This document shows positions 1-47,873 of a stretch of DNA of 47,873 nucleotides, piece by piece. The notes under the pieces were generated by a model. The model worked only from the letters and a program-made list of their open reading frames with translations. It had not been told where the DNA came from and made no database searches. The stretch comes from a virus. Each line of letters opens with the position of its first letter. Positions within the stretch are counted from its first letter, which is position 1. The position numbers and the translations under genes were made by a program. The stretch lies in the IMG/VR virus record IMGVR_UViG_3300037488_000956, positions 1 through 47,873 of that record; one strand, 5' to 3'.

Positions 1-127
1 CGAGGTAGCGTGTCTATACAACCAAGAGTCTTGCCCGGCGGCACCACCCATCGGACTTGGGCACTTGACCATCACTTGCTCTTCGAGTCACCTCTATGAG
101 AAGAACCAACCCGAGGCTTCAGAGTTG
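1..127. repeat. Terminal direct repeat, left copy (assembly closure)
   Basis: These 127 bases are identical to positions 47747-47873. They lie inside the thymidylate-synthase-like coding frame, which reads continuously across the junction, so the contig closes into a circle of 47,746 bp. The length equals a common maximum assembly k-mer. The repeat therefore shows circularity or circular permutation rather than a defined packaging end. Confidence 0.95.
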
Positions 128-274
128 CTGACCGACATCGCGCAGGAGGAGGCATCCAGTATCCCCACCGTAGACTCCACGCACATCGCCCAAGGTCGGT
201 TCAGCGAAATCATAGACCGGGTTAAGCAATGTGCCACGCGCCCCGCGGGTGCCGAGCCGAGGTATCCCCTATGA
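1..274 (+). CDS. Thymidylate synthase-like dCMP (hydroxy)methyltransferase, C-terminal part
   Basis: This is the 3' end of the gene that starts at 47169 and crosses the contig junction; the reading frame begins at base 2. The joined protein is about 283 residues. This segment carries the substrate-binding HLY motif (His223 and Tyr225 in the joined numbering), which in the family contacts the deoxyribose of the nucleotide, followed by the C-terminal tail. The stop codon overlaps the ATG of the dCMP deaminase gene as ATGA, so the two are translationally coupled. Function and the key substitution are described in the entry at 47169. Confidence 0.9.
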   Translation, partial: EVACLYNQESCPAAPPIGLGHLTITCSSSHLYEKNQPEASELLTDIAQEEASSIPTVDSTHIAQGRFSEIIDRVKQCATRPAGAEPRYPL

Positions 275-735
275 GACCTACGCGTGATGAGTGGCTTCTT
301 CGGGTAGCCACCGTGACGGCCGAACGCGCTACTTGTGCCCGCCGAAAGGTGGGTTGCGTGCTAGCCGACGAGAAGGGCCGCATCCTCGCGACGGGTTACA
401 ATGGCCCACCGCGAGGGTTTTCACACTGTACCGTGGAGAATCCTTGCGCGGGCGCGAAGCATCCCAGCGGCACCGGACTAGAGCTTTGCGAGGCGGTCCA
501 TGCAGAACAGAATGCACTACTTCAGTGCCACGATGTAGATGACGTTTATTCTTGCTACGTCACCGTGTCACCTTGCGTGACCTGTGTGAAGTTGCTCCTC
601 AATACCGGGTGCCAGCGGGTGGTGTTCTTGGAACCCTATGCCCACGAAGAACCTGCACGAATCTTGTGGCAGAGTGATTTGAACACGGCTCGAGCCTGGT
701 TGCAGGCGCGCGCCCTACAGGAGGTTTCAATATGA
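271..735 (+). CDS. Deoxycytidylate (dCMP) deaminase
   Basis: This 154-residue protein belongs to the ComEB/dCMP deaminase family, which converts dCMP to dUMP using zinc. The zinc and catalytic motifs are visible: H-A-E at residues 77-79 and P-C-x-x-C at about 101-105, with the family's YNGPPRGF segment near residue 43. A longer frame starts at 229, but the start at 271 overlaps the upstream stop as ATGA and begins where homology begins. It sits between a dCMP-type synthase homologue and two glycosyltransferase-like genes, so it acts at the dCMP branch point and could supply dUMP. T4 likewise carries both a dCMP deaminase and a dCMP hydroxymethylase. Confidence 0.9.
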   Translation: MRPTRDEWLLRVATVTAERATCARRKVGCVLADEKGRILATGYNGPPRGFSHCTVENPCAGAKHPSGTGLELCEAVHAEQNALLQCHDVDDVYSCYVTVSPCVTCVKLLLNTGCQRVVFLEPYAHEEPARILWQSDLNTARAWLQARALQEVSI

Positions 736-1457
736 TCATCATGCTTCAGTATTGGACCGGCGACGAGGCGAAGGCTCTGACCCTGGCCCGTCTATTAGCC
801 GACTTGGAACGAGGACCCCGTAAGGCGGTATACCTGGTCTTGGCCCGTGCCTTCGACTGCAACTGGAGTGAGGAGGCGGAGCAGGCACGTGTGTATTGCA
901 GCCGGGTGTTCACGGTGATACCCGTGCAGTCGTCATACCAGAAAACAGGACACCCCGACGGCGCCTTTGGCATCTGGGCCGGTGCCTTGGACCGCCTCTA
1001 CGTGTTGTGGAATAAACCCGCCATCCCATGGCACGCGGGACGGACGGTGTTTTGCTGCGAGGCCGACGGGGTGCCACTTCGTCAAGACTGGCTGGACCGC
1101 ATGATTCAGGCGCATAAGATGACACTTACTCAGGGTAGGCGGGTGACGGGCGCGGTAATGGATGAGCCGATGCCTCACGTCAACGGGAATTTCATGATGG
1201 ATTTACAGGTATGGGCCGACTATCCATCCCTCCGTGATTGCCCGCCCGGGGTGGCATGGGATTTGCACCATGCTCCCATCCTACTGCGGGAGGCTCGGTC
1301 GAGTTACGTGATTCGCAATGAATACAACACCCGCAATTGGACCGCCGGCAGCCTGGGCCCCATTGGCCGAGAGGCGGCGTGGCTTCATGGGTGCAAGGAC
1401 AACTCAGTGTTAGAATTCGTTCGGTTGATGATGCGCACGGTGTGGCGCGCTGGCTAA
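732..1457 (+). CDS. Putative glycosyltransferase-like protein (GT-A-like)
   Basis: This 241-residue soluble protein has a segment around residues 114-121 (CCEADGVPL) that resembles the acidic metal and nucleotide-sugar binding motif of GT-A glycosyltransferases. It ends with an LHGCKD segment like those near the C-terminus of some phage glycosyltransferases. The start is set by an AGGAGG seven bases upstream, and the ATG overlaps the deaminase stop. The assignment rests on motif and context: it lies between dCMP-metabolism genes and a second glycosyltransferase-like gene. A base-modifying sugar transfer is inferred. Modification of virion protein or host glycan is the main alternative. Confidence 0.55.
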   Translation: MIIMLQYWTGDEAKALTLARLLADLERGPRKAVYLVLARAFDCNWSEEAEQARVYCSRVFTVIPVQSSYQKTGHPDGAFGIWAGALDRLYVLWNKPAIPWHAGRTVFCCEADGVPLRQDWLDRMIQAHKMTLTQGRRVTGAVMDEPMPHVNGNFMMDLQVWADYPSLRDCPPGVAWDLHHAPILLREARSSYVIRNEYNTRNWTAGSLGPIGREAAWLHGCKDNSVLEFVRLMMRTVWRAG

Positions 1458-1470
1458 GAAGGAGACCAAC

Positions 1471-2280
1471 ATGATTGCCGACCTGTTTCTGAGAACGTAC
1501 CCCGCCGACTACAAGTGGCTGCCATTTCTGTTTCGGTCACTATTGAAGCACGCCCGGTGTTGGCGTGACCTGATTATCACACTGCCCCGCCCAAGTGACG
1601 CCATTATCGGTGCGTCGGGTGGTTCCGAGGTTTCGTGGCTTGGTCAACTAGCGGCACTTGACACAGCCTTGGGAGTTCCCTTCAAGACCTGGGCCGAACG
1701 GTTCCGCGAGAAAGGCGTAATCACCGGCAAGATTCACGTCTTTCAGTGTGATACGCACTACCCAGACGACTACCTCGGTCAGTGTATTACGAAACTTCGC
1801 GCGTGGGAGTACACTGACGCAGATGAGGTAGCATTTCTTGATTCGGACAACGTCCTCCTTCGTGAGTGGAATCCGTGCACCCTGCGAGGATTTGAGACTA
1901 AGCCTCTCATTGAGGTGCGTGATTGGAACGACTCGGGCCAGGCAAAAGTGGCTTGGTTCGACATCACCGAGCACCTCCTAGGTGATGTTCCGCCGTACGA
2001 GACGATGTGCCGCCACCCGTTCCAATACCCAGTCCAATTCTTACGACGGGCATATGCACTCGCGGCCACGAAGTTGGTAGGGGTGATGAAAGCCGGCCGT
2101 AAGATCAGTGAGTTCAATTACCTGGGCAACTACGCCGTACTTCATGAACCGGATAGTTTCGTCTTCCGAGCACCCCAGAGCCAAGGCCCTGACGTAGTAA
2201 AGCAATTCTGGTCCTACGGTGGTCTCAACTTTGAAGTCGAAGACGAACTTCGCCGCCTAGGTCTTTGGGAGGAGTCATGA
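1471..2280 (+). CDS. Glycosyltransferase-like protein (DUF6492-like)
   Basis: This 269-residue protein opens with a hydrophobic beta strand (IADLFLRTYPADY). It carries a clear DxD motif in AFLDSDNVLL at about residues 119-128, as in nucleotide-sugar-dependent GT-A enzymes, where the aspartates bind Mn/Mg and the sugar nucleotide. The start follows a strong AAGGAG. It follows the first glycosyltransferase-like gene by 13 bases and overlaps the FkbM gene as ATGA, so all three are probably co-translated. The acceptor is unknown. The gene neighbourhood points to a modified deoxycytidine in DNA, but this is inference. Confidence 0.65.
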   Translation: MIADLFLRTYPADYKWLPFLFRSLLKHARCWRDLIITLPRPSDAIIGASGGSEVSWLGQLAALDTALGVPFKTWAERFREKGVITGKIHVFQCDTHYPDDYLGQCITKLRAWEYTDADEVAFLDSDNVLLREWNPCTLRGFETKPLIEVRDWNDSGQAKVAWFDITEHLLGDVPPYETMCRHPFQYPVQFLRRAYALAATKLVGVMKAGRKISEFNYLGNYAVLHEPDSFVFRAPQSQGPDVVKQFWSYGGLNFEVEDELRRLGLWEES

Positions 2281-3008
2281 TACCCGTGCGGGTGGTGCGT
2301 GGGTTCATACCGGGGCACCCTGGAATATATGACATCTACACACTATCAGGTGATACGCACATCGGTAAGTGGGTGGCTGAGTCACAACGCCTCGACCATG
2401 ACCAGGCGGCCCTACCACGGATAGCAGCCTTGATCAAGCCTGACGACGTCATCTACGACGTAGGGGCTTACATCGGTGACCACACAGCCTACTATGCTTC
2501 TTGCGTACCCTTTGGGGCAGGGCAGGTGTTTGCCTTCGAACCCCAACCAGACGCATTCGTGTGCCTTGAACACAACACCCGCGTCTATTCCAACGTGCGT
2601 TGTTATAACGTAGCTCTGGGTGACGGTGGGTGTGCTCGCGTAAGCCAGGAGACGGTGGGAAACCTCGGGGCTCGTGCATTGCGAGATGGCCTATGTGAAG
2701 GTGCTGAGCACACCATCAGGCTAGACAATGTCGTAAGTACTCTCGGTTGGCCGAACCTCATCAAGGTGGACGTCGAAGGGTGGGAGTGCCGAGTGCTTGA
2801 GGGCGGCGTCAAAACCCTCTCCAGTACCAACCGGCCAACGCTGGTGCTGGAGGTGAATGCCGGAGCTCTGGGCAAGGCGGGTACCAGTGCGGAGACCATG
2901 TACGAATTCCTACGCGGTTACGGGTACCAGGACCTCCGTGACCTGTTCACGGGAGAGGTGTGGAACCCCTTAGACGCGCGGCCCCAGTTTGACGTGGTGT
3001 GTAAATAA
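2277..3008 (+). CDS. FkbM-family SAM-dependent methyltransferase
   Basis: This 243-residue protein has the FkbM hallmarks in order: D-V-G-A-Y-I-G-D-H-T at 61-70 (SAM-binding motif I), F-E-P at 87-89 and I-K-V-D-V-E-G-W-E (motif IV region). FkbM enzymes typically O-methylate sugar or polyketide hydroxyls. The ATG at 2277 is preferred over an upstream in-frame start because GGAGG lies just upstream and the ATG overlaps the previous stop. As the last gene of the modification cassette and of the whole plus-strand arm, it could methylate the sugar added by the upstream glycosyltransferases. The substrate is inferred. Confidence 0.85.
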   Translation: MIPVRVVRGFIPGHPGIYDIYTLSGDTHIGKWVAESQRLDHDQAALPRIAALIKPDDVIYDVGAYIGDHTAYYASCVPFGAGQVFAFEPQPDAFVCLEHNTRVYSNVRCYNVALGDGGCARVSQETVGNLGARALRDGLCEGAEHTIRLDNVVSTLGWPNLIKVDVEGWECRVLEGGVKTLSSTNRPTLVLEVNAGALGKAGTSAETMYEFLRGYGYQDLRDLFTGEVWNPLDARPQFDVVCK

Positions 3009-3027: not shown

Positions 3028-3139
3028 AGCTCATCTCAGAGGCCCGCAGTTGTCCGGCATGGAAACCCCCATAGACCCCAAGGAACTCCGTTCTGGCTTT
3101 ACGGCGTCTCCACGGCGGGGGTTTCTAGCCCAAAGCCTA
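3028..3139 (+). repeat. 112-bp structured repeat element, copy 1 (possible pseudoknot RNA)
   Basis: This element is repeated at the same length and orientation at 11221-11332. Conserved blocks include AGAGGCCCGCA near the left end and a long right block ending in CTAGCCCAAAGCCTA. GAAACCCCC at 3062-3070 can pair with GGGGGTTTC at 3117-3125. GGCTTT at 3095-3100 can pair with AAAGCC at 3132-3137, and the two helices cross in pseudoknot order. CCGT/ACGG at 3088-3091 and 3101-3104 closes a loop holding GGCTTT. It lies between the end of the plus arm and the convergent lysis genes. Its function is unknown. Confidence 0.7.
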
Positions 3140-3146
3140 CGATTGG

Positions 3147-3416
3147 ATGTGCAACATGGTAGAGATTTTTGACCTCATCTACGCCTGGGCGGTGGCCGAG
3201 TTGGGCCTATCCCGGGCGTGGACTATCACCTGGCCCTACTTGGAACGCCTATCGCAGACCTCACCAGAGACTGCCGCCTGGGGTGCTCTGAAGCAGGTGG
3301 GGTTACCTAAGCACGCGGCTCACCTGAAAGCCTTGGTGCGAACAGTGGAGACCATCCCGGGTGACTTGACCTTTCATTTAGACTTACGCGCCACGCGAAA
3401 GGTGCTACGACCATGA
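3147..3416 (+). CDS. Hypothetical protein, 89 residues
   Basis: This small plus-strand frame lies in the convergent region between the FkbM gene and the endolysin. The protein is mostly helical in appearance, with Trp and Leu residues (AWTITWPYLERL) and a basic C-terminus, and resembles nothing I recognise. There is no strong ribosome binding site before the ATG at 3147 or the second ATG at 3156. The frame could be a minor terminal gene of the plus arm or chance. Bases 3417-3482 after it show nothing notable. Confidence 0.4.
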   Translation: MCNMVEIFDLIYAWAVAELGLSRAWTITWPYLERLSQTSPETAAWGALKQVGLPKHAAHLKALVRTVETIPGDLTFHLDLRATRKVLRP

Positions 3417-11220: not shown

Positions 11221-11332
11221 AGCTCCTCCCAGAGGCCCGCAATTGGCAGGGGTAGAAACTCCCATGGGCCGTCGTGTTCGTTCAACTGGCTTTACGGCGT
11301 CTCCGCGGCGGGGGTTTCTAGCCCAAAGCCTA
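11221..11332 (+). repeat. 112-bp structured repeat element, copy 2 (possible pseudoknot RNA)
   Basis: This second copy has the same length as 3028-3139 and the same pairing scheme. GAAACTCCC at 11255-11263 pairs with GGGGGTTTC at 11310-11314 and 11315-11318, and GGCTTT at 11288-11293 pairs with AAAGCC at 11325-11330. The C-to-T change in the first helix keeps a U.G pair only if the plus strand is transcribed. On the minus strand the element would be the 5' leader of the spike gene, with its edge forming the ribosome binding site. It fills much of the 175-bp gap between the hub and spike genes; bases 11333-11390 show nothing clear. Confidence 0.7.
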
Positions 11333-33079: not shown

Positions 33080-33374
33080 GCGCGCATGTGTAGTGCTAGG
33101 ACTTGGTGGTGGGCGGTTAGCCGACCTGACCCGTGAGGGTGTCCATCGCCGTTACCGGGAGCTGGCTCGCCGGCACCACCCGGATTTGGGTGGTGACCGT
33201 GCCGCGTGGGATGAACTTCTATTGGCTTACCAGACGTTGTTGGCCGAGATGGCTCGACCACGGTGTTGCCCCTCCTGTCGAGGCTCCAAGACCCAGGCGT
33301 CATTCGTCAAAGGGCGCCTAGTTAGTGTACCCTGCCACTTCTGTGGTGGTGAGGGACTTGTTACCAACCAGTGA
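33069..33374 (+). CDS. J-domain protein with single zinc centre
   Basis: This 101-residue protein has a short J-domain with Y-R-E-L-A-R-R-H-H-P-D-L (the HPD loop that stimulates DnaK) and a C-terminal C-P-S-C-R-G ... C-H-F-C-G-G-E-G, one zinc centre of the DnaJ type. It would recruit host DnaK to a phage target, perhaps replication or assembly. The start has GGAG upstream and overlaps the previous gene by 11 bases. The half-zinc motif resembles that of the sigma-like gene at 30884. Confidence 0.75.
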   Translation: MTCRRACVVLGLGGGRLADLTREGVHRRYRELARRHHPDLGGDRAAWDELLLAYQTLLAEMARPRCCPSCRGSKTQASFVKGRLVSVPCHFCGGEGLVTNQ

Positions 33375-33389
33375 CCGAGGAGAAGACCC

Positions 33390-34517
33390 ATGTCGAAGAA
33401 GATGCCCGTGCTTATCATCAACAGTTACGCTGGCTCACTAGTCGTGGCCGCGCGCCAAGAGGGTCACCCCATCGTGGGGTCATATGAAGACTCGGGCTAC
33501 GGCCTAGAAATCCAACGCCACAATGAGCCCAAGCTCGACTACCGAGACACGGTGGCCGGGTGGCCGGTGAAGCAAGACCTCCGCGACACACTCGTCATTG
33601 CCCATCCACCGTGTGCGGCCTTCAGCCAGCAGGTGAGTTCGGCGGGGTGCCATTGCCGTGGGCTTGACGCGACGAAGTTCCAGCAGACGCGGACCGTGCT
33701 CGATTATGCCCTGCGTAACCGGGCGGCGGCATTGGCCATTGAATCCGTGCCGGGGGCGCTCGAGGGCGCCCGCCAGGTCCACGATGAGGTGGCGAATAAG
33801 TACGGGTACACGGTCCACCGAGTGCTTCAAGATGCCGCCAGCTTCGTACCCCAGAAACGCGCCCGCGCGTGGTTTGTCTTCCTCCCCAAGGGTCACACCC
33901 TGCAACTACCACCGCTTCCGTCGCGTGACGTCACGCCTCATGCCATCAAGCACATTCTTGCCCCGGAGAATCAGGGTGGGCCGGTCTATCCGTGGGTGCT
34001 CCGCGGGATGGAGAAGCAGTGGGAGAAGTTGCGTGAGTTCTCTCCGACCGTAAGGCGTGCTCTCATTTCAGGGTCTTTCGGCACGGGCCTGTTGGCCGCC
34101 GTCATCCGGCGGTATCTGATGACCCGGGGGAAGACGGCGGCGGAGCTCGGCAGCGTGAGAGACGTGGCGGAGAAGTACGTGGACAAGTGGCAGTTCATGT
34201 CCAACACCCCGCGGCTCTTGGACCCGGATGGTCAGGCGTCGACCTTGACGTGCACCACGTGGTGGCTCTGTGAGGGGCGGCCCTTGACGGCGCTTGAGTA
34301 CCAGCGGGTGATGGGGTTCCCGGATACCTATGACCTGGTAGGCCCAGGCGGGCTCTCGAAGCATCCTGGCTACCTCTCCCGCGGGGTGTGCCCGCCGGTA
34401 GCGAGGTGGATACTACAGGGGTTGCAGGCGACGGTAGAGGGTACGGCTAAGAGGAGTTGGCACCGCGGCTTGGCCGGGGAGACCCTCGACCTTCGACCTG
34501 GAAGGCTTATCACGTGA
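33390..34517 (+). CDS. C5-cytosine DNA methyltransferase
   Basis: This 375-residue enzyme has motif I (N-S-Y-A-G-S-L, a variant of D-L-F-A-G), catalytic motif IV H-P-P-C-A-A-F-S with the nucleophile at about Cys75, motif VI I-E-S-V-P, motif VIII V-P-Q-K-R-A-R-A-W, a C-terminal R-P-L-T-A-L-E-Y-Q-R-V-M-G-F-P-D segment and a motif X-like end. All catalytic parts appear intact. It would form 5-methylcytosine at a specific site. It is preceded by a 20-base leader, GACCGAGGAGAAGACCCATG, also found before the methyltransferase gene at 44917. Confidence 0.85.
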   Translation: MSKKMPVLIINSYAGSLVVAARQEGHPIVGSYEDSGYGLEIQRHNEPKLDYRDTVAGWPVKQDLRDTLVIAHPPCAAFSQQVSSAGCHCRGLDATKFQQTRTVLDYALRNRAAALAIESVPGALEGARQVHDEVANKYGYTVHRVLQDAASFVPQKRARAWFVFLPKGHTLQLPPLPSRDVTPHAIKHILAPENQGGPVYPWVLRGMEKQWEKLREFSPTVRRALISGSFGTGLLAAVIRRYLMTRGKTAAELGSVRDVAEKYVDKWQFMSNTPRLLDPDGQASTLTCTTWWLCEGRPLTALEYQRVMGFPDTYDLVGPGGLSKHPGYLSRGVCPPVARWILQGLQATVEGTAKRSWHRGLAGETLDLRPGRLIT

Positions 34518-35485: not shown

Positions 35486-35523
35486 ACCCAACCACCACGT
35501 TCAAGTCACCAAGGAGAATTCAC

Positions 35524-36057
35524 ATGTCCAAGTCCACCAAGTCCACCAAGTCCACCAAGTCCACCAAGTCCACCAAGTCCACCAAGGTTCGCACAATGAA
35601 AGATGTTGTCAAAGACCGTAAGGCCCAGGCCGAGAAGGTTGCGGTCACCCCAGTAGACGTCAAGAACTTTCCGCGCGTCGCCGGGCTCGGCGCCACCCCG
35701 AAGTTCTGCTCCCGCGCCGAAGCCATCGCCGACCGGGCTGCGCGCTTGGCCGAGAAGGAGGTTGTCGAGTCGGCTACCACCGGCGCCAAGACGATGGAGC
35801 TTCCGGCGGTTATCGAAGCCAAGGCTAAGGCACCGCGGGCCCGACGTGAGAACACCGTTTCCTGCCTGGCCGAGACCATGATTCAGGAGGGTGCCACCAA
35901 TGAGGAGGTGCTCGAGGCTCTGACCAAGACCTTCAGTGACTTCGACGCGGACAAGAAACGCCACTACCCTAGCTGGTACCGGGCAAGGCTCGTAAGGCAG
36001 GGTAAGATAACGGAAGCCTTTGCGGATGAGCACCGGCACGCACCGGAGGAGGTTTGA
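35524..36057 (+). CDS. Hypothetical protein with STK repeats and WYR C-terminal domain
   Basis: This 177-residue protein begins M-S-K followed by six S-T-K units, then a basic, disordered middle. A compact C-terminal domain of about 60 residues (E-T-M-I-Q-E-G-A-T-N-E-E-V, ending S-W-Y-R-A-R-L-V-R-Q-G) closely resembles the end of the protein at 44098-44811. The paralogy suggests a shared small DNA- or protein-binding domain. AAGGAG precedes the ATG. A GGTGCCACCAA motif lies within the gene at 35889-35899. Confidence 0.65.
   Translation: MSKSTKSTKSTKSTKSTKSTKVRTMKDVVKDRKAQAEKVAVTPVDVKNFPRVAGLGATPKFCSRAEAIADRAARLAEKEVVESATTGAKTMELPAVIEAKAKAPRARRENTVSCLAETMIQEGATNEEVLEALTKTFSDFDADKKRHYPSWYRARLVRQGKITEAFADEHRHAPEEV
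35533..35586 (+). repeat. Six tandem 9-bp repeats (TCCACCAAG)
   Basis: Six exact copies of TCCACCAAG encode the S-T-K units at the start of the protein. Exact identity at DNA level, rather than only at protein level, points to recent slippage and likely copy-number variation between related phages. Confidence 0.9.
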
Positions 36058-36945: not shown

Positions 36946-37227
36946 ATGACCCATGTTCAAATGAACCTGTTGCTACGTGCCACCGACGCGCGCCGAAGCG
37001 TGGAGCGCACCCTACAAGGTGCCTTGCCCCGTAGCCTGACCAAGCGTTTTCGCCAGTTGATGCGGCTAAGTCGCCAACCGGTGATGATTAAAGAGGTAGT
37101 TCACGTTCACGCCACGGAGGACTCACCCGCACGTGAGACCGTACGGCTCGTGCCCAACCGCCTGTCGCGGTTGGCGGCAGCCGGACATCTGATCCAGGAG
37201 CTTCGTCAAGTGTCGGGTGAATCGTGA
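36946..37227 (+). CDS. Hypothetical basic protein, 93 residues
   Basis: This helical, Arg-rich protein (R-R-S-V-E-R-T-L, L-T-K-R-F-R-Q-L-M-R-L-S-R) is the first gene after the promoter at 36888. GGAGG lies eight bases before the ATG, and its stop overlaps the GTG start of the kinase gene. No family was recognised. A nucleic-acid-binding role is possible from charge alone. Confidence 0.6.
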   Translation: MTHVQMNLLLRATDARRSVERTLQGALPRSLTKRFRQLMRLSRQPVMIKEVVHVHATEDSPARETVRLVPNRLSRLAAAGHLIQELRQVSGES

Positions 37228-37889
37228 TCATCGCCATCGAAGGGGTGGACGGGGTGGGGAAGACCACGCTGGCGAAGACATTGGCTAACCGGCTCGGGGC
37301 AGTCTATCAGAAGTTCCCTGACCGTACCACTATTTCGGGTTCTGCTATTGATTATGCTTTACGGGGTCGTCCAGCGTCTTCTTGTATGTCAGCGGAGTGC
37401 TTTCAAGCCCTCAACACGGTAAACCGCCTGGAGTGCCTAGAGCATCTGACGAAGGCGGCGGGTAGTGCTACCAACCACCTGGTTTGTGACCGATATACGA
37501 TGAGCAGCCTGGTTTACGGTGGGTTAGACGGTCTGCCGCATGATTGGTTGGTGACGGTGGCAGAGAAACCACTTCCAGAAGCAGATTTACAAGTGCTGCT
37601 TACCGCGAACCCTAACAAAATCGAATGTGGTCGGTTGGCTGGCCGTGACCGCGAACACTATGAGCAGGGTGGGGTGGCGATAGTAACGGCACTACAAGCA
37701 CGGTTCGAAGCGCTGTGGTGCGCACGAGGGTGTTGTTGTGAGCCGGTTCTAGTTTGGGGCCACCGTTGGAAGGTGGTGGATACTAGCCACGCCAACGCGG
37801 CGGAAGTGTTATGCCGCGTAGAAGGTTGGGTGCAGTTTTTGATCAGACGTTGCCATGAAAATAAACCCGGGAGGTTGGGCCATGCGTAG
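37224..37889 (+). CDS. Thymidylate kinase-like P-loop kinase
   Basis: This 221-residue protein has the P-loop E-G-V-D-G-V-G-K-T-T (about 6-15) and the D-R-Y motif (C-D-R-Y-T-M-S-S-L-V-Y) typical of thymidylate kinases, which phosphorylate dTMP to dTDP. It starts with GTG, coupled to the previous stop. The genome has a second P-loop kinase at 46204, so the two may serve different nucleotides, one canonical and one modified. Confidence 0.8.
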   Translation: MIIAIEGVDGVGKTTLAKTLANRLGAVYQKFPDRTTISGSAIDYALRGRPASSCMSAECFQALNTVNRLECLEHLTKAAGSATNHLVCDRYTMSSLVYGGLDGLPHDWLVTVAEKPLPEADLQVLLTANPNKIECGRLAGRDREHYEQGGVAIVTALQARFEALWCARGCCCEPVLVWGHRWKVVDTSHANAAEVLCRVEGWVQFLIRRCHENKPGRLGHA

Positions 37890-39372: not shown

Positions 39373-41304
39373 ATGACCGACATCCGAGGCACTGCCGTCG
39401 TCGACTTTGAGACTTTCCCTATCACAGCCCGGCCGGGGTATCCGCCCGAGCCGGTGGGGGTGGCCTTGCACGTGCCAGGTACCCAACCGCGGTATCTGGC
39501 CTGGGCCCACCCGTTGGGTGGTAACAACTGTACCTGGGGTGAGGCCCGACGAGCCCTGGCGGAGGTGTGGGATTCCGACCGTGACGTCTGCTTCCACAAT
39601 GCGAAGTTCGACCATGCGGTGGCAACGCACAAAATGGCGCTAGCACCGCTCCCGTGGAAGCGCATCCACGACACGATGATTCAGCTCTACCTTGAGGACC
39701 CACGGATGGAGACCTTCGCCCTCAAGCCATCGGCCGAACGACTCTTAGGTGAGGCACCGACGGAGCGGGACGAGCTCATCGACTGGCTCGTGGCCAATGT
39801 AAGGCCGGGAGGCCACAAGCTGTCGGCCTCTCCGAAGTCAGAGTGGTACGCGGGCGCCTTCGTGGCCTATGCCCCGGTCGAGTTGGCCGGCCGGTATGCC
39901 GTGGGTGACGTGACCCGGACCCGCGGCCTCCTACAGATGCTTCACAAGAAGGTGACTCGTGACCGGGGGATGGGCCCGGCCTACGACCGGGAACGCCAGC
40001 TTCTACCTATTATGGCGGAACTCGAAGAGCAGGGGGTGCGTGTCGACGTGGTGCGCCTTGCCCGCGACGTGGAACTATATCAGATGGTCTTCCGACGGGT
40101 TGACACCTGGCTCTGTCAACGGTTGAAGGTAGCGGGTGATACGAACTTCAACTCGAGCCGGGAACTAGCCGCCGCCCTTATCAAGGGCAAGGCGGTAGAC
40201 CCCAAGCGCCTAGGTAGGGGCAAGACGGGTGTCCACCTGACCAACAAGGAGGCGATTGAGGCCGCCCTCATCGACGCGCAGGTAGGTGCGGTCCTAATCT
40301 ACCGGGCCAAGCTGAAGACCGACCTCTCCACCTTCATGGAGCCTTGGCTCGAGACGGCTCGATTGACGGGCGGGTACATCTTCACAACCTGGTTCGCCAC
40401 CCGGTCAGACGACCACGGCACCCGCACCGGCCGGTTCAGCAGCACACCAAACTTCCAGAACATGCCTAAGGAGACGGAACCACTATTTCACCACGAGGAT
40501 GGTACCCTGGGCCTACCGCGGGCGCCCATCGACCTGCCGCCGTTGCCATTCATTAGGTCCTACGTGGTGCCCTACGTACCGGGTGACGTCTTGGTGGACC
40601 GTGATTATTCTCAGCAGGAACTGCGTATTCTAGGCCACTTCGAGAACGGTCCGCTCCTCAAAGCTTACCAGGCAAATCCGTGGATGGATATTCACGCGCA
40701 CACCCAAGTGCTGGTGAATGACCTACTCCATGAGAACTTCGGCCGTAAGATCATCAAGAATACCAACTTCGGAATCGTGTACGGCCTGGGGTTGGAGAAG
40801 TTGGCCCGCAAGTCTCGTAGTACGGTTGAGATGGCCGACCGGGTGAGGAAGGCTGTCCGCAAGCTCTACCCCGGGGTGCAAGAGGTCAACAGTGAAATGA
40901 AGCGCAAGGAGCAGGCTCATGAACCCCTACGCACTTGGGGCGGGCGGGAGTACTACTGCGAAGAACCGAAGATGATCGAGCTTCCCAATGGCCAGAAGAA
41001 GTGGCAGACGTACGGTTATCGGATGCTCAATATCCTAATCCAGGGGTCAGCGGCCGACTGCACGAAGGAGGCTCAGATCCGCTATTGGAAGATCCGGCCG
41101 GCTGGGCACCGCGTGTTGACCATCCCGCACGACGAGTTTCTGGTGAGTTGCCCGGCCCGGGAAAGGGGTGTGGGTATGGAAGCTCTTCGCGAGGCCATGG
41201 AGTCGGTGGAGTTCGACGTGCCGATGTTGAGCGAAGGGAAGTGGAGCGCCGAAAACTGGGCGCAGTTGAAGCCCTACGACAAAGCTGGAAAGAAGGTAGT
41301 CTGA
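39373..41304 (+). CDS. DNA polymerase, family A (with 3'-5' exonuclease domain)
   Basis: This 643-residue replicative polymerase starts with the exonuclease motif V-V-D-F-E-T-F. Polymerase motif A is R-D-Y-S-Q-Q-E-L-R (about 410-418), motif B is R-K-I-I-K-N-T-N-F-G-I-V-Y-G (458-471) and motif C is P-H-D-E (585-588). In motif A the residue after S-Q is Gln rather than the Ile of E. coli Pol I (position 709). The 5' nuclease domain is absent, as is usual in phages. AAGGAG precedes the ATG. Confidence 0.9.
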   Translation: MTDIRGTAVVDFETFPITARPGYPPEPVGVALHVPGTQPRYLAWAHPLGGNNCTWGEARRALAEVWDSDRDVCFHNAKFDHAVATHKMALAPLPWKRIHDTMIQLYLEDPRMETFALKPSAERLLGEAPTERDELIDWLVANVRPGGHKLSASPKSEWYAGAFVAYAPVELAGRYAVGDVTRTRGLLQMLHKKVTRDRGMGPAYDRERQLLPIMAELEEQGVRVDVVRLARDVELYQMVFRRVDTWLCQRLKVAGDTNFNSSRELAAALIKGKAVDPKRLGRGKTGVHLTNKEAIEAALIDAQVGAVLIYRAKLKTDLSTFMEPWLETARLTGGYIFTTWFATRSDDHGTRTGRFSSTPNFQNMPKETEPLFHHEDGTLGLPRAPIDLPPLPFIRSYVVPYVPGDVLVDRDYSQQELRILGHFENGPLLKAYQANPWMDIHAHTQVLVNDLLHENFGRKIIKNTNFGIVYGLGLEKLARKSRSTVEMADRVRKAVRKLYPGVQEVNSEMKRKEQAHEPLRTWGGREYYCEEPKMIELPNGQKKWQTYGYRMLNILIQGSAADCTKEAQIRYWKIRPAGHRVLTIPHDEFLVSCPARERGVGMEALREAMESVEFDVPMLSEGKWSAENWAQLKPYDKAGKKVV

Positions 41305-44886: not shown

Positions 44887-44916
44887 CTTAGAAACCCAAG
44901 ACCGAGGAGAAGACCC

Positions 44917-45735
44917 ATGAAGACCTTTCCGGAACCTGTGAAGCACCCGCGGACAGACCGCGGCGCCCGTGAGTTTGACCAGAGCAGTCTGCGCAACAGT
45001 AGTTACGGCAAGATGGTACACCGAGACTACGCCGCCCACTGGTTCAGGTGGCAGTATGCCGTGAGGTTCGTCAAGGCCGGTATGCGGGTGCTTGACATTG
45101 GTTGCGGACCCGACCAGATGATGGTACGGGTGCTGACGCATTCCCAGTCCAACGTGCCGGCACTGTATGTCGGGGTGGACATGAACAAGCTCGAGAAGAC
45201 TACACAGATCGCCTGGGCTCGAGTCTTGGACGAGTTCGACTTTACCCGACGGTGGAAGGAACTCCTCAAGGGGTCTTACTCCGTGGGTTCGACGGCCAAG
45301 CGGGCAGACGCCGCAAAGCGGGAGTTCGACACTGGTTCGTTCGACGTCATTACCTGCTTCGAAGTCATCGAGCACATGCCCAAGGCCCAGGGGTTGCAAC
45401 TCCTCAAGGGTATTCGAGAGTGCTTGGGCCCGACGGGGGTGGCTCTCTTGTCGACACCCGTCTACAATGAGAAGCACATGGCAGCGAACCATCTTCATGA
45501 GTACCGCTTCGAGGAGCTCCAGGAAACCATCACGAAGGCCGGCCTTCGTGTGGACCGGGTGGTGGGTACCTTCATGACATCCCAAGCCGCCAAACGTGCC
45601 GCCTCCACGGAGCAACGAGTGCTATTGAACTCACTTCACGAACGGTGGTTCTCGTGGGAGGTGCTAGCATGCCTCCTGGCACCCCTCTACCCCGAACAGT
45701 CTAGCAACTGCTGCTGGATTCTGAGGCGGGTCTAG
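44917..45735 (+). CDS. Class I SAM-dependent methyltransferase
   Basis: This 272-residue enzyme has motif I V-L-D-I-G-C-G-P (about 56-63), the F-D-V-I-T-C-F-E-V-I-E-H motif and a typical L-S-T-P-V-Y strand, as in UbiG-like methyltransferases. The substrate is unknown. It is preceded by the same 20-base leader as the C5-cytosine methyltransferase gene and starts the run of genes leading to the dCMP cassette, so it may add a methyl group to a nucleotide, sugar or small molecule in the same pathway. Confidence 0.75.
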   Translation: MKTFPEPVKHPRTDRGAREFDQSSLRNSSYGKMVHRDYAAHWFRWQYAVRFVKAGMRVLDIGCGPDQMMVRVLTHSQSNVPALYVGVDMNKLEKTTQIAWARVLDEFDFTRRWKELLKGSYSVGSTAKRADAAKREFDTGSFDVITCFEVIEHMPKAQGLQLLKGIRECLGPTGVALLSTPVYNEKHMAANHLHEYRFEELQETITKAGLRVDRVVGTFMTSQAAKRAASTEQRVLLNSLHERWFSWEVLACLLAPLYPEQSSNCCWILRRV

Positions 45736-45737
45736 TC

Positions 45738-46217
45738 ATGCCACGCACCGTACATGACGTAATACCCCAACCCGGTCGATGTGTGAGTCGGGCTTACGAC
45801 CATGAAACCAACCAGGTGGCGGAGATGCACCTGAAATTCAAGTTGGGTCGTTCTAGACGCCCGACCTTATTGGGTACCGCCCGCCTCAAGCAGAGGTTGG
45901 AATGTCTCATAGAGGAACTCATGGAGTTCCGCGCGGCGGTAACTGACGGGAACCTCCCCGAGATGGCCGACGCCTTGGTGGACCTGGTGGTGTTTGCCAA
46001 GGGTACCGCGGTGCTGCTGGGTCTCCCCTGGGCCGCACTTTTCGATGACGTCATGCGAGCCAACCTATCAAAGGTCCGTGGGGTGGGGAAGCGTGGCCAC
46101 AAGGTGGACCTGGTGAAGCCGGAGGGGTGGCGAGGACCCCAGACCCGCGACATCCTATTCGAGCACGGGTGGAACCCTGAAGAGCCTCCGAAGGAGGATG
46201 CCGATGACACTGTGTAA
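45738..46217 (+). CDS. MazG-like all-alpha NTP pyrophosphatase
   Basis: This 159-residue protein shows the family's metal-binding pattern E-E-L-M-E, then about 11 residues, then E-M-A-D, in a helical core (about residues 54-95). The superfamily includes MazG, dUTPase of the all-alpha type and T4 gp56 dCTPase. In this context a likely role is to convert dCTP to dCMP, which both starves unmodified DNA and feeds the dCMP enzymes downstream. This substrate is inferred from gene order. The start lacks a strong ribosome binding site. Confidence 0.65.
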   Translation: MPRTVHDVIPQPGRCVSRAYDHETNQVAEMHLKFKLGRSRRPTLLGTARLKQRLECLIEELMEFRAAVTDGNLPEMADALVDLVVFAKGTAVLLGLPWAALFDDVMRANLSKVRGVGKRGHKVDLVKPEGWRGPQTRDILFEHGWNPEEPPKEDADDTV

Positions 46218-47172
46218 GAAGGTCACTATCTTCGAGGGCCCTGATGGGGGTGGTAAGTCGACCGCCGCCCGTGAGTACGCCGAGGCTTTTGGCGCGCGGC
46301 TTGTACACTGTGGGCCATTCCCGGGAGTCACCCGCCGTAGCCTCGGTCGGTTATACTTGGAGGCTATGGCACCAGCCCTCGAGGGCTATCAAGACGTGGT
46401 ATTGGACCGGTGTTGGCTTAGTGAGCCCATTTACGGGGCGGCCTTCAGGGGTGGGGAAGATCGTCTCGGGGTGGTGGGCCGGCGTATCTTGGAACGGGTG
46501 GCTCTGAGGTGTGACGCACAGGTGATTCTATGCCTACCCAAGTTCAAAACGTGTTTGGCCAACTGGCAGCGTCGTCACGCCACGGGCGGGGAGTACCTGA
46601 CGAAAGAGGCTCAGTTTCGCCAGGTCTACGATGAGTATTCTACCCGCTGCGCGGTAGGTCGGTTGACGGAACTCCAGGTGACATTCTACGACTACGAACG
46701 TGGCCGAGAGTGGAGTACCGAAGAGATTTCATCTCGTGTTGCGCGTTGTCACGATACCGCAGAACCCTCCGCGGGCAACCGGCAGGCTCGGGTGTTGATT
46801 GTAGGTGAAGCACTCGCAAATCACTCTGACTACGATTCATTCTACCAACACCCGTTCTGCGGCCTAAACCCCGCCGGTTGCTCTTGGTGGTTGACGGAAC
46901 GATTGGCCGACGCGGGTATTCGTGAGCGGGACCTTCTTTGGGCCAACATCGGCGCGGGTTCAGTCAGTGTGGTTTTGTCACATAACCGTCACGGTGATGC
47001 GGCGCGTGTCGTAGCGCTAGGTGTTGCGGCGTTGAAATGGATTGAGATGTTCCGAACACCTACCTTCCGACCGCCTCGACTTTGGCCTCAGCGACACCCG
47101 CAATTCTGGCGGCGTTTTTGTCGTGCAAAACCGTACCCTCTGATCGAAACTTTGAAAGTGGTGACGACATGA
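46204..47172 (+). CDS. P-loop nucleotide kinase fused to UDG-like domain
   Basis: This 322-residue protein has a thymidylate-kinase-like half (P-loop G-P-D-G-G-G-K-S-T at 12-20; L-D-R-C-W-L-S-E-P-I-Y at 67-77) and a C-terminal half (about 197-322) that resembles uracil-DNA glycosylase families 4/5: V-L-I-V-G-E-A at 197-203, P-F-C-G-L at 217-221, V-V-A-L-G-V-A-A near 270 and a late R-H-P segment. Some glycosylase active-site residues are not obvious. The start at 46204 is preferred because GGAGG is six bases before it but adjacent to the ATG at 46198. It may phosphorylate a modified dNMP. Confidence 0.65.
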   Translation: MTLCKKVTIFEGPDGGGKSTAAREYAEAFGARLVHCGPFPGVTRRSLGRLYLEAMAPALEGYQDVVLDRCWLSEPIYGAAFRGGEDRLGVVGRRILERVALRCDAQVILCLPKFKTCLANWQRRHATGGEYLTKEAQFRQVYDEYSTRCAVGRLTELQVTFYDYERGREWSTEEISSRVARCHDTAEPSAGNRQARVLIVGEALANHSDYDSFYQHPFCGLNPAGCSWWLTERLADAGIRERDLLWANIGAGSVSVVLSHNRHGDAARVVALGVAALKWIEMFRTPTFRPPRLWPQRHPQFWRRFCRAKPYPLIETLKVVTT

Positions 47173-47873
47173 GACACGTCCTTGATTGCTACCAGCCCAA
47201 CAGCTTCGAACCCGTACCCACCGCCAACGAAGCGTGGTTAAGTCTACTGCGTAACCTAGTATTTCGTAGCGCGAAGGTCTCGCCCCGAGGCCTGGCGTCT
47301 TATGAAATACTTCACCACGTCTCTCTTTCCGTGGACTTGAATCATCCGGTGGTGACGTGTCCGAAACGTAAGTTGAACTACCGCTTCATGGCGGCGGAAG
47401 CCTTGTGGATTGCGGAGGGGCGGTGCGACTTAGCACCGCTGACGGCAGTCAACCCCAACATGGTCAACTTCAGTGACGACGGCTTGACTCTAGCCGGCGC
47501 CTATGGGCCGCGTCTTCGACCCCAGTTGCCCTATGTGGTGGAGACCCTCCTCCGTGACCGGGATACCCGTCAAGCGGCCATGACGATCTGGACACCAAAC
47601 CCGCGGCCCAGTAAGGACATCCCATGCACCATCGCCATGGTGTTCGCCATCCGGGAGAATCGCCTCTACCAGCAGGCCTTCATGCGCTCGAGTGACGTGT
47701 GGCTCGGGATACCCTATGACATCTTCTCATTCTCCCTCCTGGCCTACGAGGTAGCGTGTCTATACAACCAAGAGTCTTGCCCGGCGGCACCACCCATCGG
47801 ACTTGGGCACTTGACCATCACTTGCTCTTCGAGTCACCTCTATGAGAAGAACCAACCCGAGGCTTCAGAGTTG
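47169..47873 (+). CDS. Thymidylate synthase-like dCMP (hydroxy)methyltransferase, N-terminal part
   Basis: The joined gene (47169 to 47746, then 1 to 274) encodes about 283 residues of the thymidylate synthase fold. The family residues are present: Glu77, catalytic Cys153 (I-P-C-T), Arg173 and Asp176 (R-S-S-D-V-W-L-G). At the position of E. coli Asn177, which selects dUMP, this protein has Asp184 (G-I-P-Y-D-I-F). The same Asn-to-Asp change marks T4 dCMP hydroxymethylase. The usual folate-side Trp80 also appears to be lost. The likely product is 5-hydroxymethyl-dCMP or 5-methyl-dCMP; dTMP is the alternative. The ATG overlaps the kinase stop. Confidence 0.75.
   Translation, partial: MRHVLDCYQPNSFEPVPTANEAWLSLLRNLVFRSAKVSPRGLASYEILHHVSLSVDLNHPVVTCPKRKLNYRFMAAEALWIAEGRCDLAPLTAVNPNMVNFSDDGLTLAGAYGPRLRPQLPYVVETLLRDRDTRQAAMTIWTPNPRPSKDIPCTIAMVFAIRENRLYQQAFMRSSDVWLGIPYDIFSFSLLAYEVACLYNQESCPAAPPIGLGHLTITCSSSHLYEKNQPEASEL
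47747..47873. repeat. Terminal direct repeat, right copy (assembly closure)
   Basis: This is the exact second copy of bases 1-127. No mismatch was found in a base-by-base comparison. Any annotation in one copy should be counted once. Confidence 0.95.

Follow-up and report, generated by a model that had tools for sequence, protein, structure and literature searches.

The operon that runs across the two ends of the window, i.e., the complete stretch of 47,873 nucleotides of viral DNA analyzed here (IMG/VR record IMGVR_UViG_3300037488_000956), very probably replaces cytosine with 5-hydroxymethylcytosine by a T4-like route that employs different enzymes. The full explanation that we favor, and that we consider likely, combines a five-gene core for cytosine replacement, headed by a methyltransferase (MT1) that probably acts on the altered base or on DNA containing it, with a mobile sugar cassette at the end of the operon. 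An initial annotation had read eight genes of this region as a single pathway to a glycosylated and methylated base. This reading is partly supported as a whole, its core half well and its sugar half not established. The operon would be a variation on the hydroxymethylcytosine pathway of T4.

Genome Form and Operon Layout

Positions 1–127 of the window match positions 47747–47873 exactly, and this 127-bp terminal overlap between the contig ends implies that the genome is circular in the assembly (47,746 bp) and that the synthase ORF is continuous through the join. The join is no artefact, since the joined synthase protein aligns end to end with its homolog from the relative L003 (65% identity, 279 residues). 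All eight consecutive ORFs proposed initially to cross the contig ends are present on the plus strand (Table 1), and the claim that most of them are joined by four-base overlaps holds, as four of the seven junctions are 4-bp ATGA overlaps, namely kinase/synthase, synthase/dCMP deaminase (start at 271), dCMP deaminase/GT1, and GT2/FkbM (ATG at 2277). The other three consist of a 2-nt gap, a 20-nt overlap, and a 13-nt gap. A search against Rfam gave no match. Homologs of the C5-cytosine DNA methyltransferase encoded elsewhere in the window lie within the core operon of L009, L010, and L012.

Table 1. Features of the operon and related genes in the window.
Feature	Position	Strand	Evidence
MT1, class I SAM methyltransferase, module-specific	44917..45735	+	Methyltransf_23 2e-14
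MazG/PRA-PH-type nucleotide pyrophosphohydrolase, proposed dCTPase	45738..46217	+	PF01503 6e-11; phrog_671 5e-21
Thymidylate-kinase-like kinase (residues 1–~180) with UDG-like C-terminal domain (~182–322)	46198..47172	+	phrog_761 2e-14; fold; UDG motif order
Putative thymidylate-synthase-family dCMP hydroxymethylase, first part (47747–47873 is a copy of 1–127)	47169..47873	+	PF00303 4e-17; MilA 6e-19; Asp
Putative dCMP hydroxymethylase, rest of the same ORF past the circular join	1..274	+	127-bp terminal repeat; full-length homologs
dCMP deaminase (DCD)	271..735	+	PF00383 5e-20; phrog_174 2e-41; start 271 gives the 4-bp overlap, longer start 229 also open
GT1, GT-A-fold glycosyltransferase-like	732..1457	+	AlphaFold model pLDDT 91; PDB fold matches
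GT2, DUF6492-type glycosyltransferase-like, D-S-D motif	1471..2280	+	DUF6492 matches of homologs; alignments
FkbM-family SAM methyltransferase	2277..3008	+	PF05050 8e-16; TIGR01444; ATG 2277, TTG 2265 also open
c22, small protein after the cassette in the three phages joining cassette to core	3147..3416	+	Profile match to L003 and L004 homologs
Second, ordinary thymidylate-kinase-like protein	37224..37889	+	PF02223 5e-17
C5-cytosine DNA methyltransferase homolog	33390..34517	+	PF00145 4e-10
Family A DNA polymerase, upstream of the module	39373..41304	+	PF00476 4e-45; same place in relatives

A Five-Gene Core Recurs in Small Phages

Dozens of viral contigs, as well as the cultured Stenotrophomonas phage AXL3, contain the succession methyltransferase–MazG–kinase–synthase–dCMP deaminase, and about 15 separate contigs or phages keep its order. 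A synthase lies within 5 kb at 69 of the 81 loci homologous to MT1. From the recurring order and the linkage of MT1 to the synthase, the operon association exceeds chance. Of the eight-gene order that the initial annotation had proposed to look for in other phages, the first five genes recur, but the cassette is attached to them in just three cases, the window, L003, and L004. AXL3 (Axeltriavirus) and the Pseudoxanthomonas phage PW916 carry MT1, MazG, kinase-UDG, synthase, and deaminase in the order of the window but differ from it in that none of GT1, GT2, and FkbM is found in either phage, and in that their genes have been annotated as thymidylate synthesis. The AXL3 core shares only about 40% identity with that of the window.

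The window contains one thymidylate-synthase-family gene. In alignments, its product has Asp at the position of ThyA Asn177, as do T4 gp42 and every aligned relative, and Asn is found there in E. coli ThyA and in the M6, SPO1-type, and Ackermannvirus enzymes. Among 70 synthases encoded near MT1, Asp was recognized by pattern in 58 and by eye in another 11, with one unread. The closest sequence in the PDB is MilA, a CMP 5-hydroxymethylase that acts on CMP in the biosynthesis of the antibiotic mildiomycin (E 6e-19, compared with 2e-11 for the best thymidylate synthase). The Asp residue and this relationship to MilA bear out the initial assignment of a dCMP-type synthase homolog, and the exchange of Asn for Asp, predictive of dCMP specificity, is a feature of T4-type pathways. 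The synthase phylogeny has long branches and an open root and is relied on only for the grouping of the window with L003 and L004.

The route from dCTP via dCMP and a 5-substituted dCMP to the triphosphate, as outlined initially, is supported by the Asp residue, the relationship to MilA, the conservation of the module, and the restriction pattern of AXL3. By PF01503 and phrog_671 (nucleotide pyrophosphohydrolase), the MazG protein falls in the MazG/all-alpha NTP-PPase type and is a putative dCTPase, which would remove dCTP by converting it to dCMP. The one-carbon unit that the synthase would then place on C5 of dCMP is most likely hydroxymethyl rather than methyl, and the dedicated thymidylate-kinase-like enzyme would phosphorylate 5-hydroxymethyl-dCMP toward the triphosphate, which the family A polymerase of the phage presumably incorporates. 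The dCMP deaminase may shunt leftover dCMP to dUMP for thymidine. These predicted steps are those of T4, where they involve gp56 dCTPase, gp42, gp1 dNMP kinase, dCMP deaminase, and alpha- and beta-glucosyltransferase. In contrast to T4, the kinase of the window is thymidylate-kinase-like, of a kind that often carries a UDG-like tail, and a dedicated SAM methyltransferase heads the operon.

Of the kinase-UDG fusion proposed initially, the kinase is clear in PHROGs and by fold, but the UDG half is only suggestive. The match to Pfam Thymidylate_kin is weak (0.0012), phrog_761 is a thymidylate kinase family, and fold matches are to TMP kinases. One UDG structure (1vk2, E 1e-4; aligned half not specified) is among the folds that the complete protein matches. 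Pfam UDG gives an E-value of 0.056 for the whole protein and of 0.0073 for the domain alone (one of nine homologs). The order of the UDG motifs is visible in the alignment, with the HP motif kept and motif A degenerate, and the net charge of the domain differs among homologs. Homology of the tail to UDG is plausible but weak. As the window encodes a second, ordinary TMP kinase, the operon kinase is free for another substrate.

Among 50,697 annotated phage records, MT1 occurs in five, and the synthase is present in all five. Because of this near-exclusive association with the module, the probable substrate of MT1 is the modified base or DNA that contains it. The initial annotation had given the methylation step to FkbM and had left MT1 without a place in the route, but it is MT1, the first gene, that is the core-linked methyltransferase. 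Two identities considered for MT1 were rejected, CmoA since the profile matches UbiG- and Hen1-type chains and no CmoA, and Hen1 since the matches are weak, UbiG scores higher, and the EVIEH motif is a common one. As in the CmoA/CmoX/CmoY system for 5-carboxymethylcytosine, the window combines a class I SAM enzyme with a C5-methyltransferase homolog in one genome, but unlike that system it has a synthase acting at the nucleotide level.

Which Base Does the Core Make?

Restriction data for AXL3, whose DNA is blocked even though the phage carries the core and lacks the cassette, bear indirectly on the nature of the base. Of 37 restriction enzymes, 35 fail to cut AXL3 DNA, TasI (AATT) and Tru1I (TTAA) being the sole cutters, so that every tested enzyme with G or C in its site is resisted (PMC7504290). 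For comparison, resistance amounts to 81.9% for 5-hydroxymethylcytosine, 94.3% for glucosyl-5-hydroxymethylcytosine, 89.9% for 5-methylcytosine, and 8.3% for 5-hydroxymethyldeoxyuridine DNA (PMC7653180). With the reservation that the two studies used differing enzyme panels, the AXL3 pattern differs from that of 5-hydroxymethyldeoxyuridine (Fisher p = 7e-27) and gives p = 0.056 against 5-hydroxymethylcytosine, 1.0 against its glucosylated form, and 0.55 against 5-methylcytosine. The AXL3 digests thus match a modified cytosine and not hydroxymethyluracil.

The family names of the enzymes and the published annotation of AXL3 (PMC7504290) and PW916 favor a supply of thymidylate, from dCMP via dUMP and dTMP to dTDP, but this reading, for which we see very little chance, is already contradicted by the Asp that replaces Asn and by the restriction data. 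Moreover, the window has its separate TMP kinase, and since AXL3 also encodes a ThyX-type protein (PMC7504290), it can dispense with the synthase for making dTMP. Least probable of all is a thymidine hypermodification built on 5-hydroxymethyl-dUMP as in M6, ViI, and SP10, which likewise place a thymidylate synthase homolog beside a P-loop kinase. It is rejected because of the Asp residue and because the HMUDK helical (HMUDK_hel) and ADDT families, which in M6, ViI, and SP10 accompany an Asn-type synthase and which are present with the Asn-type synthases of L017–L027, are absent from the core loci; besides, most enzymes cut 5-hydroxymethyldeoxyuridine DNA (PMC7653180). A profile of Tet_JBP dioxygenases found no match in the records of 12 relatives, the window not among them, where the control was also unmatched. 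A synthase acting as dCMP methylase, yielding 5-methylcytosine as in phage Xp12 and leaving no hydroxyl handle, seems improbable. The Asp is to be expected in such an enzyme too, and the resistance of AXL3 fits that of Xp12 DNA, but the best solved relative is a hydroxymethylase, the FSDDG motif of the synthase is common to the M6- and SPO1-type dUMP hydroxymethylases, and a glycosyltransferase or O-methyltransferase would be left without a handle. We regard it as rather unlikely that the core by itself is an undescribed cytosine hypermodification system, shared by AXL3 with dozens of small phages. In such a system, MT1 would transfer its methyl group to the 5-hydroxymethyl or elsewhere on the base, the UDG-like domain of the kinase would serve base recognition, and the phage of the window would add a methylated sugar as well. 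No account of the module or of a methoxymethyl base was found in the open literature.

A Mobile Sugar Cassette

GT1, GT2, and FkbM form a mobile cassette. No sequence family was found for GT1, but the best 50 PDB fold matches of its model are glycosyltransferases and their relatives. GT2 homologs in L039, L046, and L047 match DUF6492 above the cut-off, and FkbM scores 86 bits with TIGR01444 (cut-off 37.7) and 59 bits with PF05050 (cut-off 22.7). Neither GT1 nor GT2 was found among the annotated phage records. T4 uses GT-B glucosyltransferases, whereas GT1 is GT-A by fold and GT2 is DUF6492-like. In RB69 and Thanatos, a sugar (arabinosyl- or pentosyl-cytosine) is carried on modified cytosine and a dCMP hydroxymethylase homolog is present; the excerpts available of these reports consider the candidate transferase of RB69 a GT-B fold and report no FkbM. 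Where the cassette joins the core, FkbM occurs only in the window, and the order of the glycosyltransferases in L003 differs from that in the window and L004. Cassette proteins are fused to one another in several records. A possible second glycosyltransferase, c64, lies in the core of L012; its family also occurs in Aeromonas T4-like phages, and it matched neither T4 beta-glucosyltransferase nor the PDB. No generic GT2-family domain was found among the core genomes.

That these genes transfer a sugar to the base and then methylate it, as proposed initially, is not supported, since GT1, GT2, and this FkbM subfamily are a separate cassette that also occurs without the synthase. The initial annotation itself had named homologs unlinked to the synthase as evidence against its reading, and this is nearly the situation found: 20 virus records, many of them fragments, carry cassette parts without a detectable thymidylate synthase gene, some next to terminase, portal, or structural-type genes, but the cassette does join the core in the window, L003, and L004. 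It is conceivable, at odds somewhat short of even, that the core makes hydroxymethylcytosine and that the cassette decorates virion proteins or another virion or surface glycan, having merely landed at the end of an early operon. The cassette lies upstream of terminase in L039, L042, L044, and L077; in L047, GT2-GT1-FkbM is placed directly 5' of a 410-aa protein which by start and length resembles that following the cassette in L046; candidate capsid proteins adjoin the cassette in L046, L047, and L048; and neighbors in L086 and L083 read, by sequence, as a GDP-mannose-dehydratase-type enzyme and a hexapeptide acyltransferase, respectively. With net charges of −6 (GT2) and −9 (FkbM), against +6 for T4 beta-glucosyltransferase, these two proteins are acidic; this, together with the many homologs without a synthase, weakens a role on DNA. 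On the other side stand the fragmentary nature of many synthase-less records and the site of the cassette in the three phages that join it to the core, directly after the deaminase gene in a replication/nucleotide operon; in the window, 4-bp overlaps are found there. For these phages we lean slightly, and tentatively, toward the DNA base as what the cassette acts on.

Significance

The presence of glycosyltransferases next to a synthase does not on its own count as evidence that DNA is glycosylated. We know of no described cytosine pathway with such a methyltransferase as MT1 or with a kinase-UDG fusion. With the core module, the so far unexplained resistance of the cultured phage AXL3 to restriction has a specific explanation that can be tested. 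The results suggest that replacement of cytosine throughout the genome is frequent among small phages other than the T4 group, and an Asp-type synthase beside MT1 is a marker for finding such phages.

Genome and operon layout

The IMG/VR virus record is a circular contig with an exact terminal repeat and a unique length of 47,746 bp, and since tail sheath, baseplate, tape measure, portal, and major head proteins are encoded, the phage looks contractile-tailed. As the initial annotation had it, eight consecutive genes, all in the same orientation, run head to tail across the contig ends, and the four-base overlaps described for most junctions are found at 4 of 7. Genes for a family A polymerase, a PD-(D/E)XK nuclease, and a SNF2-type helicase lie 5' of the operon. 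The leaders of MT1, the methyltransferase gene that opens the operon, and of a C5-cytosine methyltransferase homologue are near-identical and may reflect shared translation control. A non-coding repeat occurs 3' of FkbM and between two late genes, and in each place the likeness reaches further upstream. Searches near the first copy found no Rfam match and no promoter or terminator.

Coordinates of features in the window and in other virus records (L-numbers)
Feature	Record	Position	Detail
Terminal repeat	Window	1-127 = 47747-47873	Exact
Eight-gene operon	Window	44917 through the join to 3008	+ strand
C5-cytosine methyltransferase homologue	Window	33390-34517	PF00145
Leaders of this homologue (33390) and MT1 (44917)	Window	33361-33392; 44888-44919	32 nt, 84% identical
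Second, more typical TMP kinase	Window	37224-37889	
Non-coding repeat	Window	3093-3139; 11286-11332	47 bp, 98% identical
Tandem 9-bp units	Window	35519-35590	CCAAGTCCA
Region with the core's 341-aa protein and the genes after the polymerase	L012	6350-13080	phrog_14998
GT2-FkbM fusion	L039	7645-9804	719 aa
MT1 beside c64 family	L112	3910-7662	10.7-kb locus

The core module

The 25 viral contigs retrieved with the synthase as query fall into two classes. In one (L017-L027), a 5-hmdU DNA kinase helical domain accompanies an Asn-type synthase and, in several contigs, the amino acid:DNA transferase family; this is the thymidine pathway of the M6 type. The other, which includes the window, shows the order MT1, MazG, kinase, synthase, and deaminase, adjoining polymerase and helicase genes, and is also present in the cultured phages AXL3 and PW916 and two more annotated records. 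An MT1 scan gave 80 loci, some on contigs already met, or 81 with one annotated record; within 5 kb of MT1, the synthase is encoded in 69 of the 81, MazG and the deaminase in 61 each, the kinase in 51, and a UDG-like domain in 39. Five of the 12 loci lacking the synthase are apparently cut off by the contig end soon after MT1. Among 50,697 annotated phage records five carry MT1, all with the synthase, and from this linkage MT1 belongs to the module.

In L112, where the locus lacks a synthase, MT1 adjoins the c64 family (that of the 341-aa L012 protein) and a C5-methyltransferase homologue; this is possibly a version that alters the base within DNA and not as a nucleotide. C5-cytosine methyltransferase homologues (PF00145), present in the window and the L004 record and within the core operon of L009, L010, and L012, are odd if cytosine is already substituted. 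The L012 protein is also found in Aeromonas T4-like phages, and in L012 genes for UDP-glucose dehydrogenase and NAD synthetase follow the polymerase; an independently recruited sugar step is possible.

Asn177 of E. coli ThyA recognizes uracil, and Asp at this position confers cytosine specificity in thymidylate synthase and T4 dCMP hydroxymethylase. In our alignment, Asp occupies it in the window synthase, all aligned relatives, and T4 gp42, and Asn in ThyA and the M6, SPO1-type, and Ackermannvirus enzymes. Among 70 synthases near MT1, Asp was read by pattern in 58 and by eye in 11 more, one being unread. Because of this residue, and with the CMP 5-hydroxymethylase MilA as best solved relative, action on a cytosine nucleotide is well supported; the product is likely hydroxymethyl, not methyl.

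The N-terminal part of the operon kinase belongs to the thymidylate-kinase group. A second TMP kinase in the window leaves it available for another substrate, 5-hydroxymethyl-dCMP being the natural guess. The motifs in the tail of the operon kinase are arranged as in the UDG family, with weak statistical support; the tail is missing from the kinases of L003 and L004, the nearest relatives, and is therefore dispensable.

In the route considered most likely, MazG would convert dCTP to dCMP, the synthase, with the base indicated by its residue, would yield 5-hydroxymethyl-dCMP, the kinase would form the diphosphate, and the polymerase would build the modified nucleotide into DNA. The deaminase, by its family, would turn surplus dCMP into dUMP, and MT1, by association, may modify the base or DNA.

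The sugar cassette

GT1 is predicted to have a GT-A fold, GT2 groups with DUF6492, and the FkbM assignment is clear. Searches with each gene show that the three co-occur elsewhere, as GT1-GT2 fusions (L071-L073), GT2-FkbM fusions (L039, L083), or separate genes (L042, L044, L046, L047, L075-L078), and the cassette is a real unit. At its C-terminus the L039 fusion extends further, into a part that faintly resembles sulfotransferases. The eight-gene order had been proposed for survey in other phages: the core order recurs, but FkbM joins the core in the window only. The cassette adjoins the core, directly after the deaminase, in the window, L003, and L004, with the GT order reversed in L003.

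That the cassette acts on DNA is hypothesized from this operon position, the one observation pointing to it, and the sugar transfer and methylation of the base are not supported in the form first envisaged: no thymidylate-synthase-family gene was detectable in any of 20 other records with cassette genes, many of them fragments. Terminase and portal genes are among the neighbours in L039, L042, L044, and L077, and structural-type genes and sugar-modifying enzymes, read from the sequences, in L046, L047, L083, and L086. GT2 and FkbM are acidic, in contrast to T4 beta-glucosyltransferase. We consider a methylated glycan on the base nearly an even prospect, and one on the virion or surface only slightly less likely.

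Restriction data and comparison with T4

MluCI and MseI share their recognition sites with TasI and Tru1I, respectively. Of 37 enzymes, only TasI and Tru1I, both with A/T-only sites, cut AXL3 DNA (PMC7504290). In a benchmark that used at least 200 enzymes on each phage, the resistance rate was 81.9% with 5hmC DNA, 94.3% with glucosylated 5hmC, 89.9% with 5mC, and 8.3% with 5hmdU; MluCI (AATT) and MseI (TTAA) digested glucosylated T4 DNA to completion (PMC7653180). The AXL3 resistance (35/37) cannot be reconciled with 5hmdU (Fisher p 7e-27) but agrees with substitution of cytosine in any form; it lies marginally above that of plain 5hmC (p 0.056), the enzyme panels of the two studies being different. 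Taken alone, the digest would suit a guanine modification as well, and cytosine is preferred because of the synthase residue. GT1, GT2, and FkbM were searched for in AXL3 and are absent, so the cassette is not required for the resistance of AXL3 DNA.

The authors describing AXL3 (PMC7504290), and likewise those describing PW916, assigned the module genes to thymidylate synthesis. Searches of the open-access literature found no account of the module. The window pathway runs on the same logic as that of T4; what sets it apart is the type of kinase, the transferases, MT1, and the UDG-like kinase tail.
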